33,800 nt of DNA from an uncultured Alphaproteobacteria bacterium (lineage in GTDB: Bacteria; Pseudomonadota; Alphaproteobacteria; RF32; CAG-239). Where the stretch lies: NCBI GenBank assembly GCA_944391335.1, contig CALXTF010000002.1, positions 75,801 through 109,600 of the forward strand, in the 5' to 3' direction. Made by a program: the position numbers and the translations under genes. Of this stretch, positions 12,565-33,800 are shown one piece after another; the first letter of the stretch is position 1; every line of letters begins with the position of its first letter. The notes below the pieces were generated by a model. It saw only the letters and a program-made list of their open reading frames with translations, made no database searches and was not told where the DNA came from.

Positions 12565-13341
12565 ATGTCTGACAATACTGTTAATTTTTATCTTGCTCCC
12601 AATTTACCCCAAAACAAACATGCTTTTTTTGGACGTTGCGGCGGTGTTTCAACGGGATTTTACGATAGTCTTAATTTTAATTACTATAGTAACGATAAAA
12701 AAGAAAACATTAAACAAAATTTAGAAATTGTAGGAAAATTTTATGGTTTAAACCATAGTAATATCATGCGTCCCAAACAAGGACATACCAATAAAGCTGT
12801 TTATATAGATTATCCGTCTTTCAACCAAATAGAAGCCGATGGAATTGTAACCGATCATATTGACATTATCTTAGGAATTACAACAGCCGACTGTATGCCT
12901 GTATTATTAGCTGATTTTAAACATGGAATTATTGGCGCGGCTCATGCGGGATGGCGGGGAGCTTTATCGGGAATTGTTGAAAACACAATTTCAATTATGC
13001 TTGACAAAGGCGCGAATAAAGAAAATATCGCTGTTGCAATTGGTCCATGTCTACAACAAAAAAATTTTGAAGTTCATAATGATATGCGTAATCTTTTTTT
13101 GCAACAAGACAAAGATAACGATCGTTTTTTTAAATCTATTGATGATCAAACTTTTTTATGCGATCTTGAAGGATATATGAAACAAAGACTTATGTTAATC
13201 GGCATTAAAAATATTTCTTTATCCGGTATTGACACATATAGTCATCCTGAGCTTTATTTTAGTTATCGTCGTTATTGTCATCAAGACTTAATTAAACAGG
13301 AAAAAGATTTTCCTATTGAATTATCAACTATCAGATTATGA
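12565..13341 (+). CDS. pgeF: peptidoglycan editing factor PgeF (YfiH/LACC1 family)
   Basis: This laccase-domain family protein has 258 residues. Conserved metal-site residues are His74 in KQGHTNKA, Cys110 in TTADCMPVLL and His127 in HAGWRG, which match E. coli YfiH His71, Cys107 and His124; GPC and SYRR motifs follow. Family knowledge offers two roles: in E. coli it prevents misincorporation of serine for alanine in the stem peptide, and the mammalian relative LACC1 (FAMIN) shows purine nucleoside phosphorolysis and deamination. Both fit the neighbours, nucleoside enzymes upstream and an amidase downstream. It starts 3 bases after deoA with only a weak ribosome-binding site and overlaps the amidase by 4 bases. 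Confidence 0.93.
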   Translation: MSDNTVNFYLAPNLPQNKHAFFGRCGGVSTGFYDSLNFNYYSNDKKENIKQNLEIVGKFYGLNHSNIMRPKQGHTNKAVYIDYPSFNQIEADGIVTDHIDIILGITTADCMPVLLADFKHGIIGAAHAGWRGALSGIVENTISIMLDKGANKENIAVAIGPCLQQKNFEVHNDMRNLFLQQDKDNDRFFKSIDDQTFLCDLEGYMKQRLMLIGIKNISLSGIDTYSHPELYFSYRRYCHQDLIKQEKDFPIELSTIRL

Positions 13342-14078
13342 GTTTTTCCATGATTAACCTTTATCCTCTTCCTTATTATAACGAACGCAAACTTCCTATC
13401 AATATGTTGGTTATACATTCCATGGCACATAACGCAGCCGAAGGAATTAAGCAGCTTGAAACGCTAAAATTGAGTGTTCATTATGTCATTGATTATGATG
13501 GCAGGATTTTTCAATGTGTCAGCGAAGATAAAAGGGCTTGGCACGCCGGCGTCAGTTATTGGCGGAAAATAACAGATATTAATTCATGTTCAATTGGTAT
13601 AGAAGTCTGTCATCGCAGTCTCGGACAAAGTAAATTTAATCAAAAACAAATAAAATCATTAATAGATTTAAGCCGAGATATCATTAACCGCTATCATATA
13701 GCTCCAACAATGATTGTTGGTCATTCGGATATAGCTCCAAAACGCAAACCCGATCCGGGTAAAGATTTTCCATGGCGGGAATTAGCCGCTAATAATATCG
13801 GCATATGGTTTGGCAGTCGCTTTTCCAGCGAAAATGATATTATAAAAATGCTTTCCGACATAGGTTATGATACAGAAGATGAAATATCGATTAAGGCGTC
13901 ATCTTACGCTTTTTGCCGACGTTTTTTATCGGGAAAGATAAAAAAACGCCCTGTCAGAAAAGTTTTGGAACATCCTTTTGACGACGAAGATGAAAATCTA
14001 TTAAAGGATAAAGAATTTATTAAAACATTACAAAATGTTCACTATCAATATCTAATGTACGAAAAAAATGGTTTATAA
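13338..14078 (+). CDS. N-acetylmuramoyl-L-alanine amidase, AmpD-like (Amidase_2)
   Basis: Expected to cut the bond between MurNAc and the stem peptide in muropeptides. The 246-residue protein has the amidase_2 zinc site: His27 in LVIHSMAH, His129 in VGHSDIAP and Asp139 in KPDPG; Glu89 in GIEVCH is also conserved. There is no signal peptide, so the enzyme probably works in the cytoplasm on recycled muropeptides, as AmpD does. After about residue 165 a small helical segment (DIIKMLSDIGYD) resembles a peptidoglycan-binding-like module, followed by a charged tail. The start ATG overlaps the pgeF stop (ATGA) without its own ribosome-binding site; an ATG at 13350 is an alternative. It is the last gene before a strong terminator. 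Confidence 0.88.
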   Translation: MSFSMINLYPLPYYNERKLPINMLVIHSMAHNAAEGIKQLETLKLSVHYVIDYDGRIFQCVSEDKRAWHAGVSYWRKITDINSCSIGIEVCHRSLGQSKFNQKQIKSLIDLSRDIINRYHIAPTMIVGHSDIAPKRKPDPGKDFPWRELAANNIGIWFGSRFSSENDIIKMLSDIGYDTEDEISIKASSYAFCRRFLSGKIKKRPVRKVLEHPFDDEDENLLKDKEFIKTLQNVHYQYLMYEKNGL

Positions 14079-23137: not shown

Positions 23138-24031
23138 ATGATTACGCCGATTCCTCGCGGTTCTAAAGTTGGCATTATTTCTCCTTCCTGTTCACTTCAA
23201 TCACCAGAAGATATTCGCGCTGGTTTACATTGGCTTGAGAGTTGCGGTTACCATATTGTTCTTGGCCATTATGTTTTTGATAGAAAAGATCATTTAGCAG
23301 GCAGTGCCGAACAGCGAGCGGAAGACATCATGCGTTTTTTCGCCGATTCGGAAATTAAAGCTATTTTTGCAACCGCCGGAGGTTATGGCGCACAAGCCGT
23401 CTTACCTTTGCTTAATTATGATATTATAAAGAAAAATCCTAAACCTATTATAGGTTTCAGCGATATAACCGCATTACAAACAGGTATTTATAGCCAAACA
23501 AACAATATTAGTTACACCGGTATATTGTTAAAATATGATTTTCAAAACAATACATCAATCCACCCATATACCGCGGAAAGTTTTTTACAAATAATGGATG
23601 GCGATTATTCAGAAATCATGGGCGGTGTTACGGTTAATTCCGGAATTGCAGAAGGACATCTTATCGGCACGAATCTTTGTGTACTTCAACTTTTGGCAGG
23701 AACTAAATATTACCCCAAATTAAAAGATGCGATTCTCTTACTTGAAGATGTTGATGAAAAAAGTTATCGAATTGAACGACTTTTATTACAACTTCAGCAA
23801 CAACCTGATTTTAAAGATGTACGCGGTATTATTTTTGGTCAGTTTACAGACATAACTTTAAATCATCCGGAAGATAAAGACATCAATCAAATCATTGATG
23901 ATTTTGCTAATAAAGTTAAAATACCAATTATTAAAAATTTTCCTTTTGGCCATGTGAGAGCGCGTAAAAGTCTGCCTATTGGGGCAAAAATAATTTTAGA
24001 TAGTAATAAGTGTTGTCTAAAAATTAAATAA
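23138..24031 (+). CDS. ldcA: muramoyltetrapeptide L,D-carboxypeptidase (S66)
   Basis: LdcA removes the terminal D-Ala from cytoplasmic tetrapeptides, giving tripeptide for reuse. The 297 residues have TAGGYGAQAVLPLL, the nucleophile Ser108 in IGFSDITAL, Glu203 in LLLEDVDE and His272 in FGHVRARKSLP, matching the Ser-Glu-His triad known in Pseudomonas aeruginosa LdcA. No signal peptide is seen. It starts 3 bases after the Mur ligase with GGAG about 9 bases before its ATG. The end overlaps the convergent membrane protein gene by 15 bases. Confidence 0.94.
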   Translation: MITPIPRGSKVGIISPSCSLQSPEDIRAGLHWLESCGYHIVLGHYVFDRKDHLAGSAEQRAEDIMRFFADSEIKAIFATAGGYGAQAVLPLLNYDIIKKNPKPIIGFSDITALQTGIYSQTNNISYTGILLKYDFQNNTSIHPYTAESFLQIMDGDYSEIMGGVTVNSGIAEGHLIGTNLCVLQLLAGTKYYPKLKDAILLLEDVDEKSYRIERLLLQLQQQPDFKDVRGIIFGQFTDITLNHPEDKDINQIIDDFANKVKIPIIKNFPFGHVRARKSLPIGAKIILDSNKCCLKIK

Positions 24032-25128: not shown

Positions 25129-26054
25129 GAATTAATCAAACGATCATCCAAACGATCTTCGACAAGGCCTGCTGGATCTTGATGAATAATAACTTGCGCA
25201 CATGGAAAGGCTTCTTTAAGTTTATTTTCGACAATATCCGTTAATTCATGAGCTTTATAAAGAGAAAGCGCCCCATCTAATTCCAAATGCAATTCAAACA
25301 TATAAATATCTCCGAGATTTCGACTGCGTAGATCATGAAGTCCACGACAAAAAGAACAACTTTTCACAATATTAATTACTTTTTCTCTAACATCATCTGG
25401 TAATTCTTTATCCATCAATAAAGAGACAGCCTGTTTAGCAAGTTTATAAGCAGATATGAGCAGATAAAAGGAAACAAATAATGCCGCTATTGTATCAAAC
25501 CAATCAAAATTAAAAACCTTAACAATCAATAAACTAATGATAATGGATATATTTGTAATGATATCGACTAAATAATGAGCTCTATCAGCGGCAACAGCTA
25601 ACGAATCTGTTTTTTTCACCACAATTTTCTGAAAAACAATTAAACCTATTGTTATTAACAAACACAACAACATTACAACAATACCGGCTGCAGTATCTTC
25701 AACTTTCTGAGGTTTAATAAAACGATTTATTCCTTCATAAACGACGAAGAATCCCGAACCGGCAATAAAGGCGGCTTGAACTAAAGCACTTAAAGCTTCT
25801 GCCTTGCCATATCCGTATCGATGCCCAAAACTTGCCGGTTGAGAAGAAAAACGAACGGCAATAAAAGTAATAAAAGAAGAAATAATATCTGCAAGGCTGT
25901 CTGCCATTGAAGATAATATAGCCAATGATCCTGTATAAATTGCCGCGACAAATTTAATGAAGGCTAAAAGTCCAGAAACAGCCACACTCACGCTAACAGC
26001 AATTTTTTTAAGTTGATTTATTTTTTTCTGATCAATCAATTTCATTTGCGACAT
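25125..26054 (-). CDS. cation diffusion facilitator (divalent metal efflux)
   Basis: CDF transporters export divalent metals such as zinc, iron or manganese in exchange for protons. The 309 residues have six membrane segments and a cytoplasmic C-terminal domain with LHDLRSRNLGDIYMFELHLELD. Metal site A is seen as Asp52 and Asp56 in SMADSLADI and His160 and Asp164 in ADRAHYLVDI, the DD-HD arrangement of FieF/YiiP (Asp45, Asp49, His153, Asp157). It overlaps the end of the ABC permease fusion by 23 bases, so it is last in a five-gene minus-strand run, though the link may be chance. Confidence 0.92.
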   Translation of the reverse strand: MSQMKLIDQKKINQLKKIAVSVSVAVSGLLAFIKFVAAIYTGSLAILSSMADSLADIISSFITFIAVRFSSQPASFGHRYGYGKAEALSALVQAAFIAGSGFFVVYEGINRFIKPQKVEDTAAGIVVMLLCLLITIGLIVFQKIVVKKTDSLAVAADRAHYLVDIITNISIIISLLIVKVFNFDWFDTIAALFVSFYLLISAYKLAKQAVSLLMDKELPDDVREKVINIVKSCSFCRGLHDLRSRNLGDIYMFELHLELDGALSLYKAHELTDIVENKLKEAFPCAQVIIHQDPAGLVEDRLDDRLINS

Positions 26055-29000
26055 TTTGTAACTTCTTTAAATTATCTTCACTAATTTCATAAAAACATTT
26101 TTTTGCCGTTTTAGCAAAAAAGCTTAAGTATTTATCTTTTTCCAATAAAGGGAAAAGGTAATTTACATAGATATGCTTTTGATATTTTTGAAAATCAAGC
26201 ATTATATTTATATTATTTTCCACATTAAGCTGAAGAGAAAATATTTTTTGTCCTGTTGGTTTTTCATTTATTGCAGATAAAAAAGAGGTATTCAACATAT
26301 TTTTTACCAATTCTGCCGTTTGATTTAAATTTCTTATTTGGTCAAAACCGGTTAATCTGCCAAAACGTAAATTCCATAAAGTAGCATAAGTCCAATCATT
26401 TTTTATTGTTGATAAATCAATAAAATCGGCTTTAACTTTCCAAACTTGAAATTTATCGACGAAGCGCACATAAGCGGCTCTTCCGCCGCGACCGATATCA
26501 AGATCATAACGTCCGACGAGCAAATCGGCAAAAATGTTTTGTTTATCATCAGATAATTGAATTCTGATACTTTTAGAGCCATCGGCGGATGTAGGCAATA
26601 AATCGAACTTAGATAAATATTCGACTTTATCGGAACGTTTTTCATAATAAGTCATATTTGAAAGGACTATCAACAAGTGTAAAATTCTTTCTTGATAGAC
26701 GGGAAGGCAAGGTTCTCCTTTAAGTTTCCATATTCCGTTATCTTTGTAAAAATTCAAATTTGTTTCAGCGGAAGTTAAAGAAATTTGGGTAATATCGTTT
26801 AATTTTTCGGTTAAGCCATCAAATACTAACTTATTTTCATAATCATCGATTTGCCCGTGTTGATTAATATAGAATGAAAACAACCCGACAATTAATAATA
26901 CTCCGGCAAAAAGAGCCGTCATTTTCAACTCGCGGTTTGCAGAGAATTTTAATGAAACCGAGCAATAAAGACGTTTTTGATGAAGAGCGACCAACAAAAG
27001 AATAAATAAAATTAACAAGGGGATAAAAAAGATATTAACAAGTTTAACTTTTAAATTAAGTTGTTGCAAATTACGATGCATATTCGAGCGGATATCTGCC
27101 AGATTTTGTTTTAAGTTTTCGAGTTGTTGACGAATTCCTGCAATAACGGCAAGTTCATCAGAAGTAAAATTTTCACGTTCTTCAAATTCTCTTTTTGCTA
27201 AAACTTCTTGCAAAGCTTTTTGCGTTTCTTCGATTTTGTGAAAAATATCATTTTCATTTAACCGAAACTGCCGTAAATTTTCTTTACGTTGTTTTTCCAT
27301 ATTTTCGAAGCGGCGAATTTTTTGTGTTCGACCGCGAAGATCAAGCAATACCGTTTCCCCTGCTAAATAATCTAAAGAATTGAGAATAAAATTAGCGTTA
27401 TCATAAAGCGGCGTAAAATAATTATTTTCTATAATGGTATATGTTTTACTCCAAAAAGAATCATAAATAAAATCTGTATCAGCAACCACAATTACTTCAA
27501 AAGGATTTACTTTTTTATTTTGAACAAGCAAAGCGGCTAAAAATTTTAATTTTTCATCAGGTTTAAACATATTTAGTAATTCTGTTGGGTTTTTTCCTTC
27601 ATACACGACGCTTGAAGAAAGAACACCGGAATGATCCGCTGCTTTAATCAAAGGAATAAAAGAGCTGTGATTACCTTGAGGAACAATTGCCGAAACAGAA
27701 GCGAACAATATTCCTTGTAAATTACGAGTTATAGGGAAATCAGGGTTCATTGTTTCATTAGGTGCGACGAATTGAACCACATCTTGAGTAAAAATGGGGT
27801 TTGTTGAATAATTTTTGGTAGCATCGACTGTAATTGAGTTATCAAGATCAGCAACAACCAATTCATTATAAAAGCGGAATCCCCAAAATTCATCTAATCC
27901 ATTAAGATTAGATGGAAAAAATTCAATATTGTTTGGAGAAAAGATACGCGAAGCTTCTGCGGCGGTATCTAATAGCAATAGAGTTTTTCCGCCAAATTGA
28001 GAATATTTTTTAATAGCCTCAACCATCTTATCAGGAAGTTTTTGCGGATGAATCATCATTAATAGGTCAATTTTTGCAAGATCATCGACCTGAGTAATAA
28101 TTTTGATATTATAAAATTTTTCGATTTCGGTTATAATATTCCATTTAGGAGACACATAACCGCCATCATAAGGAGTATCAAAGACAGGTAATCCGCTTAT
28201 AAGTCCCAGTGTTTTTTTCTTGTGATAGAGTTGATAGATTTGTTCAATTAAGTCCTGTTCCAAATAAGCATATCGTTCAAGAGCAAACAGAGGAATTATT
28301 TGTTGTTGATCAAGACTATCTGTCAAGACAATTCCCAAAAAACCGTTTTGATTTATATCAACCAACGGGATAGGTTGTAAACCAGACGCGATAGCTTGAT
28401 CTTCAATATCATTTAATGGTTTCGGGTTATAAATTTTATAACTAAATTTTTCGGGGACGAGTTGAGAAAATTCTTCTAACAACAATCGTATGCGATCATA
28501 TATTAAGCGAAATTCTGGATTACGTTGACCAAGAATTGGAGAATAATACAATTTAGCAATAACCGGTTCAGGAATTTTTTTAAGAATTTCAATTGAAGAA
28601 TTTGACAATGTATGTATTTTCTCTTGGGTTAAATCGAATCGATAAATTCTCAAGAATCGATTAGCTGTTAGATTAAGTCCAATAAAAGCCATAAACAAAA
28701 AAACAAAAAATAAAACATAATATCCTATTTCCGTTGATTTAAGCCAAAGAGAAGTTCCTAAAGTGCGAAAACTAATAATTAAAATAGTCATCACATTAAA
28801 TAAAAGGATAATAGATATAAAAAAGATAATATCTCGACATTCGAGTATACCGGTTGTCATAGATTCAAAATGGATAAGAAAGCTAAAAGAAGCGATCATA
28901 TCGACCACAGCGACCGGAGCGAACAAACGGAAGAAACCAAGGACATATTCAATTCCGCTTAAAAAGAAAAAGAAATTAACAATTACCGCCAGAACTAAAG

Positions 29001-29487
29001 CGATGACTTGATTTTTAGTTAAAGCCGACATAGTTTGAGAAATAGCAATCATACAACCGGCTAAAATCCAACTACCGATATAACTAAGCAAGATTACGGC
29101 ATTATCTGGAGTTCCAAGCCAATTAACAGTCACCCAAAAAGGGAAAGTCAAAATTAAAGCGACAGCCGAAAACAGCCATGCTGCAAAAAATTTTCCCCAT
29201 ACCAGAGTTGAAATACAAACAGGCATTGTTAAGAGTTGAACAATTGTTTTACTACGAAATTCTTCAGCCCAAAGCCGCATTGAAATTCCGGGAATAAACA
29301 ACAAATAAAGCCATGGTTGAAAAGCAAACATTGATGATAAATCGGCAATACCCCGATCTACGAAATGTCCGAAATAAACAGCAAAAGAACCATTTAAAAT
29401 TAAAAAAGCGATTAAATAAACATAAGCCAGCGGAGAAACAAAATAACGCAGCAGTTCATTTTTGACGACAACTCCTAATTTTTTCAT
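26032..29487 (-). CDS. ABC transporter permease fused to GldG-like and DUF4340 domains
   Basis: A 1151-residue inner-membrane protein in three parts. Residues 1 to about 240 are a GldF-type ABC-2 permease with about six membrane helices and WAEEFRSKTIVQLLTMPV. From about 245 a second anchor leads into a GldG-like domain (DLTQEKIHTLSNSS, then ABC_transp_aux region to about 540), facing the periplasm. A coiled coil at about 725-800 and an anchor near 815-832 follow. The last 300 residues after another anchor (about 855-872) look like DUF4340, with NGIWKLKGE and LLVGRYD. GldF-GldG fusions and separate DUF4340 genes are known; all three in one chain is less usual. Starts directly after the ATPase stop. 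Confidence 0.88.
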   Translation of the reverse strand: MKKLGVVVKNELLRYFVSPLAYVYLIAFLILNGSFAVYFGHFVDRGIADLSSMFAFQPWLYLLFIPGISMRLWAEEFRSKTIVQLLTMPVCISTLVWGKFFAAWLFSAVALILTFPFWVTVNWLGTPDNAVILLSYIGSWILAGCMIAISQTMSALTKNQVIALVLAVIVNFFFFLSGIEYVLGFFRLFAPVAVVDMIASFSFLIHFESMTTGILECRDIIFFISIILLFNVMTILIISFRTLGTSLWLKSTEIGYYVLFFVFLFMAFIGLNLTANRFLRIYRFDLTQEKIHTLSNSSIEILKKIPEPVIAKLYYSPILGQRNPEFRLIYDRIRLLLEEFSQLVPEKFSYKIYNPKPLNDIEDQAIASGLQPIPLVDINQNGFLGIVLTDSLDQQQIIPLFALERYAYLEQDLIEQIYQLYHKKKTLGLISGLPVFDTPYDGGYVSPKWNIITEIEKFYNIKIITQVDDLAKIDLLMMIHPQKLPDKMVEAIKKYSQFGGKTLLLLDTAAEASRIFSPNNIEFFPSNLNGLDEFWGFRFYNELVVADLDNSITVDATKNYSTNPIFTQDVVQFVAPNETMNPDFPITRNLQGILFASVSAIVPQGNHSSFIPLIKAADHSGVLSSSVVYEGKNPTELLNMFKPDEKLKFLAALLVQNKKVNPFEVIVVADTDFIYDSFWSKTYTIIENNYFTPLYDNANFILNSLDYLAGETVLLDLRGRTQKIRRFENMEKQRKENLRQFRLNENDIFHKIEETQKALQEVLAKREFEERENFTSDELAVIAGIRQQLENLKQNLADIRSNMHRNLQQLNLKVKLVNIFFIPLLILFILLLVALHQKRLYCSVSLKFSANRELKMTALFAGVLLIVGLFSFYINQHGQIDDYENKLVFDGLTEKLNDITQISLTSAETNLNFYKDNGIWKLKGEPCLPVYQERILHLLIVLSNMTYYEKRSDKVEYLSKFDLLPTSADGSKSIRIQLSDDKQNIFADLLVGRYDLDIGRGGRAAYVRFVDKFQVWKVKADFIDLSTIKNDWTYATLWNLRFGRLTGFDQIRNLNQTAELVKNMLNTSFLSAINEKPTGQKIFSLQLNVENNINIMLDFQKYQKHIYVNYLFPLLEKDKYLSFFAKTAKKCFYEISEDNLKKLQNVANEID

Positions 29488-30219: not shown

Positions 30220-30942
30220 CTAATTTTTGTTTAATTCATACAATACGACAGCGGCAGCTGTTGACACATTTAAGCTTTCCACTTTAGGACTAATCGGTAA
30301 ACGAATACAAATATCACAAGTTTCAGCCACCAATCGACGCAACCCTTTTCCTTCGCTTCCCATAACGACAGCTAATTTATCTCCTTTTTTTAACTCATGC
30401 AACTGCGTTTTAGCATATCCATCGGTACCAATAATCCAAAAACCTTCTTTTTTTAATCTTTCGAGTGCGCGTGTTAAATTTGGTGTACGGCAAATAGGTA
30501 ATAATTCATAAGTCCCTGCAGCAGCTTTAACCATTGCCGGACTCTCTTGAGGAGAATTTTTATCTTGAACGAGAAGCGCATCCGCATTAAAAGCTGCGCA
30601 AGAACGGATAATTGCTCCAATATTTTGAGGATCTGTTACCTGATCTAAAACAACTATACAGGCATTTTTTTTCAATTTTACAAAATCACATAAATTATCT
30701 AAAGAAATTGTCGGCAACATTTCGGTTAAGACAGCTATTCCCTGATGTACGGCTTCATGTGGGAGTATTTTATCCAAAGCGGATTTATCAACCACATTAA
30801 TTTTATTATTATTGATTTTTCCATTTATAAAATGAATATTTTCTTTTAAACAATACACGCGAATAATATTGCGTTTGGAATTTTCTAATACCGCTTCAAC
30901 AGCATGTTTTCCATAAATTAAAATTTGATTATTATTTTGCAT
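30220..30942 (-). CDS. rlmB: 23S rRNA (guanosine-2'-O)-methyltransferase RlmB-like
   Basis: A SPOUT (TrmH-type) methyltransferase expected to modify 23S rRNA G2251. The 240 residues have an N-terminal RNA-binding domain starting IYGKHAVEAVLEN, and the three knot motifs: VLDQVTDPQNIGAIIRSC, VMGSEGKGLRRL and LPISPKVESLNVSTAAAV. In alphaproteobacteria rlmB is often close to the tRNA-Tyr, tRNA-Gly, tuf block, as it is here, 2.5 kb away. It starts 1 base after the HAD phosphatase stop and is 12 bases from the ABC ATPase gene. Confidence 0.93.
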   Translation of the reverse strand: MQNNNQILIYGKHAVEAVLENSKRNIIRVYCLKENIHFINGKINNNKINVVDKSALDKILPHEAVHQGIAVLTEMLPTISLDNLCDFVKLKKNACIVVLDQVTDPQNIGAIIRSCAAFNADALLVQDKNSPQESPAMVKAAAGTYELLPICRTPNLTRALERLKKEGFWIIGTDGYAKTQLHELKKGDKLAVVMGSEGKGLRRLVAETCDICIRLPISPKVESLNVSTAAAVVLYELNKN

Positions 30943-30943
30943 A

Positions 30944-31591
30944 TTATTCCCTTTCTAGGAGATTTTGAATATCCACAAGATATTTTACTTTATCATCAGG
31001 AGTTTCGCCGCAATACTGGTTTTTTGGATCCAAGATAATACATTTTGCTCTTTGATTACCCTTTTTATATACATTAGCTGTTTTAACATCTGCGGCTCCG
31101 TCACCAATTACCACAATTTGATTAACAGGAGGCAAAATACCGTCAAAAACAGCCAAGCATGCCGTAGGATGTGGCTTATCTTGAGAATATTCACCGGCAG
31201 CCACGACTTTTTTAAAATATTTTTGAAAACCAAGTTTTTCCATTTCTTTATAGATGAAATATGTTTTTTTATTTGTCAGCAAGTAACATATAATATCTTT
31301 CTTTTTACAATATTCCAATAATTGAGCCGCGCCTTCTATCGGTTTAAGATTTTTTGTATGATATTGTTCAATATACTCATAAAAATATTTAACAGCTTCA
31401 TTTTGCCGTTCTTTAAAGAAATAACCGAGAATATCTTTATTTTGTAGAGTACTGATAATTTTTTTTATGTTGTCATCGTCAATTTTTAGAATTCCCATTT
31501 TATTAAAAGTATAGTGATAAGCATCAAGAATTATCGGATAAGTATCTGCTAAAGTACCGTCCCAGTCAAAAACCGCATATTTTCGCTTCAT
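30944..31591 (-). CDS. HAD-family phosphatase, Gph-like (candidate MurNAc-6-P phosphatase)
   Basis: A 215-residue haloacid dehalogenase-type hydrolase with the four motifs: Asp9 and Asp11 in FDWDGTLAD, Thr106 in LLTNKK, Lys139 in QDKPHP and the GDGAADV motif with Asp164 and Asp168. The cap is helical, between motifs I and II, as in phosphoglycolate phosphatase (Gph). Its substrate cannot be read directly. It is divergently placed next to an AmgK-MurU fusion, and MupP, the MurNAc-6-phosphate phosphatase that feeds AmgK in Pseudomonas, is a Gph-like HAD enzyme, so MupP is my favoured role. A phosphoglycolate phosphatase is the main alternative. AAGGAA precedes the ATG. Confidence 0.85.
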   Translation of the reverse strand: MKRKYAVFDWDGTLADTYPIILDAYHYTFNKMGILKIDDDNIKKIISTLQNKDILGYFFKERQNEAVKYFYEYIEQYHTKNLKPIEGAAQLLEYCKKKDIICYLLTNKKTYFIYKEMEKLGFQKYFKKVVAAGEYSQDKPHPTACLAVFDGILPPVNQIVVIGDGAADVKTANVYKKGNQRAKCIILDPKNQYCGETPDDKVKYLVDIQNLLERE

Positions 31592-31680
31592 AAAGATTCC
31601 TTAATTTTTAATGATATTTTAAGTCTTAAATTCTAACTATAAATTATATGAAGATAATATCATGTTAGGAGTTTCGGTCA
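31592..31680. promoter_or_regulatory. divergent promoter region between HAD phosphatase and AmgK-MurU fusion
   Basis: The 89-base gap is AT-rich. On the minus strand a perfect TATAAT (31643-31648) could serve the HAD-rlmB-ABC run; I see no good -35. On the plus strand TTAGGAG sits about 9 bases before the fusion ATG. Both units therefore probably start here and may share control. Confidence 0.3.
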
Positions 31681-33384
31681 ATGGAAAAACTTAATCGTTT
31701 AGAAAAAATGAACGAATTTGTTTTAAAAAAAAGCGCACAAGAGCATTATACTTTAACACCTCTAGCAACCGATGCGTCCAGCCGCAAATATTATCGTGTT
31801 TCTTTTACAAACGGTAAAACGGCTGTTGTTATGGATGATGAGGGATGCCGTTGTCGAACACATGAATTTGTTACATTATCAAAATTTCTTCGTAGAAGAG
31901 GAGCATATGTACCGGAAGTTTTTGCCAGCGATTTTAAAAACGGTTTTTTATTAATAGAAGATTTAGGGGATAGCAGTATATCTAAACTTTTGACAGATAA
32001 TAATGAAACACAATTATATCTAAGCGCGGCTTCAGCACTTAGTAAAGTTACGGCTATTACAGAACGTCCCAAATGTGCAGAAGAACTTTCAAAGCGTAAA
32101 ATTTTAGATGATTTGCAACTATTCACGGATTGGTATTATCCGATGGCCGTAGGTCAAATATTATCACCCCAAGCTCGAAAAGATTTTTTTAATATAATTG
32201 AACAATTATCTTCTTTAGCCTATCAGGTTCCGAATCGATTGGTTTTATGGGACTATCATATTGATAATGTCATGGTTCCAAAAAATTCGAAAGAATGTGC
32301 CATTATAGACTTTCAAGACGCTTTATGGGGCCCCCTGACTTATGATATAATGAGTTTATTAGCCGCAGATCGGCGAACTGCTTCAGATACAACCATAAAC
32401 ATGGTAAAAGAGGCGTTTTTTAAGACATTAACAGGAGTTAGTCGTGAAGATTTTGAAGATTCATATGCTTTTCTTTCACTTTTCCGTCATTTAAGAGTAC
32501 TCGGACGTTTTACCACATTATCTATGATTAACGGCAAGAAGCATTATTTACAATATATCTGCCAAATATGGGAAAGGATAGACAGCATTTTAAAATACCC
32601 AAAATTAGAAAAGATAAAACAATGGATGACACAATACATTCTCCCCGAACAAAGGACAACACCTGTAAGAAAACCTATTTATAAAGCAATGGTTTTAGCC
32701 GCGGGAAGAGGCATAAGGATGAGGGAACTGAGTCTTAATCAACCTAAACCTCTTATTCAAGTAGGCGGAAAATCTCTTATTGATTATAATTTTGAACGTC
32801 TTATAGATTTTGGAATAAATGATATTGTTGTCAATTTATGCTATAAGGGAGAAATGATAAAAGAACATCTTCTTAAACACTATCCCCATACCCATATATC
32901 ATTTTCCACTGAAGAAGAAGCCTTAGAAACAGGAGGCGGAGTTAAACACGCGCTTCCCTTATTAAAAGACAGCGTTTTTTTTGTATTAAACAGTGATGTT
33001 TTTCTTACAGATAGAGGATATAAACCAATTTTATGGCGTATGCTTGATGCATGGAATGAAGAAAAATATGATATTATATTATTGCTGCAAGATAAAAAAG
33101 ATGTCTGTGGCGATAAAAGCATAGGAGATTATCGTATCACATCCAAGGGCGAAATAGAAAGAAATAAAGAAAAAACATCTGGATATCCATACATGTTTGC
33201 GGGAATATCGATTATCAATAAGAAAATTTTTAACAACCAACCGTTAAAAAAATTTTCATTACGCGACTGTTTTGACATGGCGCAACAAAAGGGACGCCTA
33301 GGTTTTGTAGTCAATGAAGGAGAATTATTTCATGTTGGAACACCAGAGGCGCTAAAAGCAGCAGAAACAAAAATCCACAGATAA
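31681..33384 (+). CDS. bifunctional N-acetylmuramate kinase / MurNAc-1-P uridylyltransferase (AmgK-MurU fusion)
   Basis: The 567-residue chain joins two recycling enzymes. Residues 1 to about 325 are an aminoglycoside phosphotransferase-type kinase like AmgK, which makes MurNAc-1-phosphate: catalytic Asp191 and Asn196 in WDYHIDN, metal ligand Asp210 in IIDFQDALWGP. Residues about 333-567 are a nucleotidyltransferase like MurU, which makes UDP-MurNAc: LAAGRGIRMREL with KPL, the ETGGG motif (416-420), LNSDV with Asp439, and a final HVGTPEAL. In Pseudomonas these are two adjacent genes. The fused product would bypass de novo GlcNAc-to-MurNAc synthesis and its fosfomycin-sensitive step. The linker (about 310-332) is short. 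AGGAG lies before the ATG. Confidence 0.9.
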   Translation: MEKLNRLEKMNEFVLKKSAQEHYTLTPLATDASSRKYYRVSFTNGKTAVVMDDEGCRCRTHEFVTLSKFLRRRGAYVPEVFASDFKNGFLLIEDLGDSSISKLLTDNNETQLYLSAASALSKVTAITERPKCAEELSKRKILDDLQLFTDWYYPMAVGQILSPQARKDFFNIIEQLSSLAYQVPNRLVLWDYHIDNVMVPKNSKECAIIDFQDALWGPLTYDIMSLLAADRRTASDTTINMVKEAFFKTLTGVSREDFEDSYAFLSLFRHLRVLGRFTTLSMINGKKHYLQYICQIWERIDSILKYPKLEKIKQWMTQYILPEQRTTPVRKPIYKAMVLAAGRGIRMRELSLNQPKPLIQVGGKSLIDYNFERLIDFGINDIVVNLCYKGEMIKEHLLKHYPHTHISFSTEEEALETGGGVKHALPLLKDSVFFVLNSDVFLTDRGYKPILWRMLDAWNEEKYDIILLLQDKKDVCGDKSIGDYRITSKGEIERNKEKTSGYPYMFAGISIINKKIFNNQPLKKFSLRDCFDMAQQKGRLGFVVNEGELFHVGTPEALKAAETKIHR

Positions 33385-33486: not shown

Positions 33487-33572
33487 GGAGGGGTGGCAGA
33501 GCGGTCAAATGCAACGGACTGTAAATCCGTCGACTTACGTCTACGAAAGTTCGAATCTTTCCCCCTCCACCA
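33487..33572 (+). tRNA. tRNA-Tyr (anticodon GTA)
   Basis: The 86-base gene folds as a class II tRNA: acceptor GGAGGGG (33487-33493) pairs with CCCCTCC (33562-33568), discriminator A at 33569 and an encoded CCA end. The anticodon GTA is at 33521-33523 in the loop between CGGA and TCCG arms. The long variable arm fits tyrosine tRNA, and GTTCGAATC is the T loop. It is 40 bases before tRNA-Gly. Confidence 0.97.
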
Positions 33573-33612: not shown

Positions 33613-33686
33613 GCGGGTGTAGCTCAATGGTAGAGCAGAAGCCTTCCAAGCTTATGACGGGGGTTCGATTCCCCTCACCCGCTCCA
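33613..33686 (+). tRNA. tRNA-Gly (anticodon TCC)
   Basis: The 74-base gene has acceptor GCGGGTG (33613-33619) pairing with CACCCGC (33676-33682), discriminator T at 33683 and encoded CCA. AGCTCAATGGTAGAGC is the D arm, the anticodon TCC is at 33645-33647 and GGTTCGATTCC is the T arm. It sits between tRNA-Tyr and tuf, the arrangement seen upstream of tuf in many proteobacteria. Confidence 0.97.
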
Positions 33687-33741: not shown

Positions 33742-33800
33742 ATGGCAAAAGAGAAATTTGAAAGAAGCAAGCCGCATTGCAACATAGGAACGATAGGACA
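33742..33800 (+). CDS. tuf: elongation factor Tu (partial, N-terminus only)
   Basis: The window ends 59 bases into this gene. The visible residues, MAKEKFERSKPHCNIGTIG, are the start of EF-Tu, which delivers aminoacyl-tRNA to the ribosome; the GTP-binding loop lies beyond the edge. AGGAAG and a run of purines precede the ATG, and it follows tRNA-Gly by 55 bases, probably in one transcript with the two tRNAs. Confidence 0.95.
   Translation, partial: MAKEKFERSKPHCNIGTIG

Follow-up and report, generated by a model that had tools for sequence, protein, structure and literature searches.

Can one polypeptide carry both AmgK and MurU, and what would such a protein do in a gut alphaproteobacterium? 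The question is raised by an open reading frame on the forward strand of the window, by which we mean the whole 33,800-nucleotide stretch of DNA that was analyzed (G000:C2:75801-109600). The source genome has 1.33 Mb and is 99.9% complete, and the closest relatives with a name are MAGs of alphaproteobacteria from gut and rumen, among them 'Azospirillum sp. CAG:239' (L041, 47% identity). Our main reading, to which we give a probability of roughly 0.8, is that one polypeptide would carry out the last two anabolic steps of MurNAc salvage, fed by AnmK and by a HAD phosphatase in the putative role of MupP, from the chromosomal slot that holds murQ in relatives. The gene, 31681-33384 (+), comprises the following features.

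31667-31671, + strand: AGGAG ribosome-binding site, 9 nt 5' of the ATG, read directly
31681-32655, + strand: AmgK-type (APH-fold) kinase domain, aa 1 to about 325 (NCBIfam, Pfam and structure match)
32656-32679, + strand: linker between the domains, about aa 326-333 (stretch left uncovered between the 3csv and MurU matches, in sequence and structure)
32680-33384, + strand: MurU-type uridylyltransferase domain, aa 334-567 plus stop (NCBIfam and structure match)

The original prediction, made from the sequence alone, placed this gene exactly: the 567-aa frame starts with ATG downstream of AGGAG and is open throughout, with no internal stops. The motifs that it quoted for the kinase (WDYHIDN, aa 190-196; IIDFQDALWGP, aa 208-218) and for the nucleotidyltransferase (LAAGRGIRMREL, aa 339-350; ETGGG, 416-420; LNSDV, 436-440) are all present, and its domain borders match the ranges covered by the best structures (3csv, aa 5-331; MurU 4y7v, aa 334-567).

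For the N-terminal half, the highest-scoring NCBIfam profiles are two AmgK models (NF045698, 129.7 bits; NF045759, 128.0 bits), followed at a distance by MTRK (21.2 bits). The Pfam match is APH (72 bits) and the best structure match is 3csv (Z 33.6), an alphaproteobacterial AmgK-like protein. The predicted catalytic residues Asp191, Asn196 and Asp210 are invariant across all fused and split homologues examined. For the C-terminal half, two MurU models rank first (NF045697, 162.0 bits; NF045761, 156.6 bits) and HddC next (86.6 bits). Pfam assigns this half to NTP_transferase, and the MurU structures 4y7v (Z 26.5) and 8hhd (Z 25.8) come ahead of RmlA and GalU (about 24), at about 33-35% identity to the solved MurU structures. 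The domain contains a GxGxR loop (342-346), PKP (355-357) and NSD (437-439); within the nucleotide-binding GxGxR and PKP motifs and the N-x-D metal motif, G342, G344, R346, K356, N437 and D439 are invariant among the family fusions.

Both halves score far below the NCBIfam equivalog cut-offs (130 bits with 500 required for AmgK, 162 bits with 370 required for MurU). The equivalog cut-off marks close orthologues and was not counted as defining AmgK. Split homologues of the tsaE-addB operon also miss the AmgK cut-off, at 155-272 bits, and because such orthologues from the canonical operon fail the cut-offs too, we set the low scores aside as counter-evidence. The best profile and the best structure of each half are AmgK or MurU, as was claimed for the single chain. 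The profile search of both halves, which had been proposed as a way to refute that claim, returned no other kinase or nucleotidyltransferase family with a better score; together with the structure ranking, this rules out assignment to another sugar kinase or nucleotidylyltransferase family. The domain types are thus confirmed, and on sequence and structure comparison the N-terminal half is predicted to have ATP-dependent MurNAc 1-kinase activity and the C-terminal half to form UDP-MurNAc from MurNAc-1-phosphate and UTP. An AlphaFold2 model built from 32 fused homologues (mean pLDDT 91.6, pTM 0.89, linker pLDDT about 93-94) predicts the two domains in one confident arrangement.

A survey of prevalence, also suggested with the prediction, found the fusion in 36 of the 152 genomes of the family (CAG-239-type gut alphaproteobacteria), as 33 full-length single ORFs and three ORFs cut by contig ends, and found scattered further fusions elsewhere in Alphaproteobacteria. 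The 33 full-length homologues from separate genomes rule out an assembly or frameshift artefact. Given these, the three truncated copies and the invariant catalytic positions, the fusion is no product of chance or sequencing error, and the ORF is confirmed as a genuine, conserved and bifunctional-looking AmgK-MurU fusion. Every family genome with a detected kinase has the kinase fused. Another 22 of the 152 genomes have a kinase-less MurU, and the remainder have neither fusion nor MurU.

In a class-wide sample, 176 of 385 genomes have a match at E <= 1e-40. Outside the family, at least five of the matches listed are single-ORF fusions (G519, G367, G431, G053 and G228) and the others are split. 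The usual order of the split loci in Alphaproteobacteria is tsaE-amgK-murU-addB-addA, an operon that is probably the source of the fusion. Many split loci outside the family have one in-frame stop between the genes; amgK and murU share a frame with a single stop between them in 50 of the 70 split loci examined, a proportion raised by a search that favours such loci.

In trees of the MurU half, the family fusions group as a single clade (bootstrap 98-99, present in 98-100% of bootstrap trees) whose sister is the kinase-less MurU, and the four outside fusions that could be placed are separate from one another. A common origin with the fusion of family f91 (L178) was rejected (AU test, p 0.001). 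The scatter of the outside fusions and this rejection therefore show that the genes fused several times, at least once demonstrably independently, with lasting success once, in the CAG-239-type family, in whose ancestry an adjacent amgK-murU pair would have been joined a single time.

In Hyphomicrobium and other Rhizobiales the kinase has another fusion partner, as TsaE-AmgK upstream of a split murU (L053-L064). A candidate triple TsaE-AmgK-MurU fusion (L181) was discarded: its additional N-terminal stretch is high-GC sequence that happens to stay open, and TsaE is encoded in a separate, overlapping frame. The kinase-less MurU, otherwise canonical, are found in six genera of the family (22 genomes; loci L158-L164 and L177) and retain the conserved MurU residues. 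Of the eight loci read, four have rph-rdgB and addB(-addA) nearby, much as in the ancestral neighbourhood but with amgK missing, and nearly all of the 22 genomes have MurQ.

As to mechanism, the fusion may be due to the chance disappearance of a stop codon, with the two domains working independently of each other, without channelling and no better than as separate proteins. The single in-frame stop in so many split loci (again, favoured by the search) and the recurrence of the fusion are what this explanation would lead one to expect, whereas two observations speak against it, although neither proves channelling: all family genomes with a detected kinase retain the fusion, and the model has the domains in one confident arrangement. 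We put chance joining at even odds. It concerns the mechanism only and is compatible with the same salvage pathway.

The main reading requires the rest of that pathway. Two further recycling genes lie in the window.

13338-14078, + strand: AmpD-type amidase, an upstream recycling step (Amidase_2, 113 bits; AmpD model, 114 bits with a cut-off of 143)
23138-24031, + strand: LD-carboxypeptidase (LdcA type), muropeptide recycling (NF008424, 179 bits with a cut-off of 378)

Elsewhere in the source genome we found AmpG (C30), NagZ (C14), AnmK (C4) and MurA (C36), and no match to MurQ above background. With the HAD phosphatase in the MupP role, the salvage route claimed for this organism is complete in gene content. 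Across the family, AnmK is present in 150 of 152 genomes and AmpG in 137 of 152. Most genomes have two AnmK-family matches (for instance G000:C4:18820-19884 in the source genome), the second often an ORF of about 420-490 aa.

Because MurQ is absent while AmpG, NagZ, the amidase, AnmK and MurA are present, a flux from AnmK through the HAD phosphatase and AmgK-MurU to UDP-MurNAc is the coherent reading, and it is from this context that we infer the substrates. AmpG import and cleavage by NagZ and AmpD would supply the substrate, AnmK would convert anhMurNAc to MurNAc-6-phosphate, and the phosphatase would release MurNAc. The N-terminal domain would then use ATP to form MurNAc-alpha-1-phosphate, and the C-terminal domain would use UTP to form UDP-MurNAc, which would join peptidoglycan synthesis after MurA/MurB. 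Such a gene content would also imply the fosfomycin bypass that was originally predicted, and with it possible fosfomycin tolerance.

The phosphatase step is assigned to the gene divergent from the fusion.

30944-31591, - strand: HAD phosphatase, 215 aa, putative MurNAc-6-phosphate phosphatase (MupP role; HAD family, weak match to the MupP model)

This gene (E about 1e-20 or better) is present in 36 of 36 fusion genomes and in nine of the 116 others (Fisher p 8.5e-27, with shared ancestry ignored), and in nearly all loci read it is adjacent and divergent to the fusion. It could instead be an unrelated housekeeping enzyme, such as a phosphoglycolate phosphatase, that is a mere neighbour while another enzyme supplies MurNAc. 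Its profile scores lean that way (64 bits for phosphoglycolate phosphatase, 45 bits for MupP, all far below the cut-offs), as does a second HAD in the source genome (L188, G000:C6). The strict co-occurrence goes against it, and so does one genome (G026) in which the gene is still next to the fusion but on its other side. We regard the neighbour-only explanation as unlikely and infer the MupP role for the divergent gene. The second HAD adjoins an AmmeMemoRadiSam gene, and the idea of a Caulobacter-type MupP next to glmU, taken from Caulobacter locus numbers, was dropped on that account.

Two further arrangements were seen. Two tandem HAD phosphatase genes lie beside the fusion in G027 (L202, 1574-3053). 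A further tie between a phosphatase of this kind and AmgK-MurU comes from another alphaproteobacterial MAG (L080, 5300-7587), where a split amgK-murU pair is overlapped at its start by a HAD-like gene (27% identity).

The family fusion is found outside the tsaE-addB operon, between rlmB and tRNA-Tyr/tRNA-Gly/tuf. In the window, the borders of this slot are as follows.

30220-30942, - strand: rlmB, left border (TIGR00186, 213 bits with a cut-off of 160; synteny)
33487-33572, + strand: tRNA-Tyr (GTA), right border (ARAGORN; synteny)
33613-33686, + strand: tRNA-Gly (TCC), right border (ARAGORN)
33742-33800, + strand: start of tuf (EF-Tu), reading MAKEKFERSKPHCNIGTIG; the contig end at 109600 falls inside tuf

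The contig of the source genome and those of many related assemblies break at tuf just past the fusion, presumably owing to repeated copies of tuf, so the slot is often at a contig end.

In many sister genomes, murQ directly follows rlmB in the same slot (for instance L165-L167, L169-L171, L174-L176, L199 and L203). Some loci hold both, in the order rlmB-HAD-fusion-murQ-tRNA (L152, L153, L156 and L157) or rlmB-murQ-HAD-fusion-tRNA (L148 and L149). MurQ is present in 13 of 36 fusion genomes and in 96 of 116 others (Fisher p 2.4e-7, with shared ancestry ignored). When corrected for phylogeny on a 39-locus tree, the anticorrelation rests on five independent pairs and loses significance, with a median p of about 0.25, in the expected direction and with low power. 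Because the same slot in relatives holds either the fusion with its phosphatase or murQ, the two MurNAc recycling routes seem to replace each other at this position within the family; the murQ etherase there would consume the same MurNAc-6-phosphate. This in-place exchange is of greater interest than the fusion, and with the divergent phosphatase it forms the most telling part of the context, which the original prediction had not picked up.

In G103 (L186) an intact HAD gene stands beside murQ with the fusion absent, and in G081 (L187, 8302-8466) a 32-residue HAD stub does; both look like relics of cassette loss. In the divergent intergenic region between the fusion and the HAD gene, a promoter scan gave 13 hits against 9.5 +/- 3.6 in shuffles, no enrichment.

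Our confidence in the main reading is held to about 0.8 mainly because the family clade has replaced residues that are near-invariant elsewhere. The clade-specific changes in the kinase are R190W, Q268F/L, R279T, R283V/I and D284N, together with I276R (Arg in 29 of 29 family fusions). The G547-x-W549 pair of MurU is lost in the family fusions, with W549 becoming F, L, E or Q; W549 is kept in the split and the kinase-less MurU. R190, R279, R283 and D284 of AmgK and W549 of MurU are each near-invariant among 80 split loci, and the fusions outside the family retain R279. Although neither these kinase residues nor G547-x-W549 were counted as defining AmgK or MurU, both halves carry substitutions at near-invariant positions, so the substrate identity rests on context. 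The replaced residues may reflect a remodelled pocket, the domain interface, or drift.

These substitutions raise the possibility that a protein derived from AmgK-MurU took on a different amino sugar or 1-phosphate as its substrate, such as GlcNAc or a surface-glycan sugar; the matched family is itself named N-acetylmuramate/N-acetylglucosamine kinase. Set against this are the slot in common with murQ, the HAD phosphatase that always accompanies the fusion and the near-universal AnmK of the family, and no glycan-synthesis genes adjoin the fusion in the neighbourhoods read. Re-specialisation therefore appears quite improbable, and we retain UDP-MurNAc synthesis as the main reading.

A single chain might channel MurNAc-1-phosphate between its active sites, as the original prediction had it. 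In a stronger form, the protein would be a channelling UDP-MurNAc synthase with pocket and interface remodelled together (R190W, I276R, R279T, R283V and W549F/L), in a cassette with the phosphatase that replaces murQ in place. This full combination is unlikely; if true, the lineage would switch from MurNAc breakdown to intact reuse.

The route is known; the single-chain AmgK-MurU and the slot exchange with murQ are new here. We found no description of a natural AmgK-MurU fusion in the open-access literature, to which the search was confined (subscription papers lay outside it). The AmgK and MurU of Pseudomonas (pp0405/pp0406; PA0596/PA0597), used with AnmK and MupP (PMC5371407, PMC5371409), belong to the same two domain families in the same gene order, but are two proteins, whereas the CAG-239-type family has one chain with clade-specific changes. 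The tsaE-amgK-murU-addB-addA operon (e.g. Hyphomicrobium and Hoeflea) likewise has homologous genes in the order of the fusion, but split and at another locus, and in many Rhizobiales it is TsaE that is fused to AmgK instead. The MurU pathway of Caulobacter, examined by mutants and metabolomics (PMC13046382), is alphaproteobacterial like the fusion. In C. crescentus, however, its genes are split (CCNA_03649/03650), and the locus number of the MupP homologue (CCNA_02390) is far from amgK-murU. MurQ, the MurNAc-6-phosphate etherase, occupies the same slot in sister genomes and presumably shares the branch-point metabolite, but is an unrelated SIS-fold enzyme of a catabolic route.

The gene content of the source genome agrees with the Caulobacter pathway and with the reported rule that Beta- and Gammaproteobacteria have either MurQ or AmgK-MurU (PMC5371407). 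Because murQ and the phosphatase-fusion pair exchange at one locus, whether a lineage recycles MurNAc catabolically or anabolically, hitherto described as a contrast between large bacterial groups, becomes testable among close gut relatives. The fusion also allows a direct test of MurNAc-1-phosphate channelling and, as one-gene UDP-MurNAc synthesis, would simplify peptidoglycan metabolic labelling, which now needs two genes.

One other gene of the window deserves mention. The 1151-aa protein encoded at 26032-29487 on the reverse strand has an N-terminal match to GldF (permease) followed by one to GldG, and adjoins a GldA-like ATPase, so that this gut alphaproteobacterium has a gliding-type ABC transporter gene that is itself a fusion.
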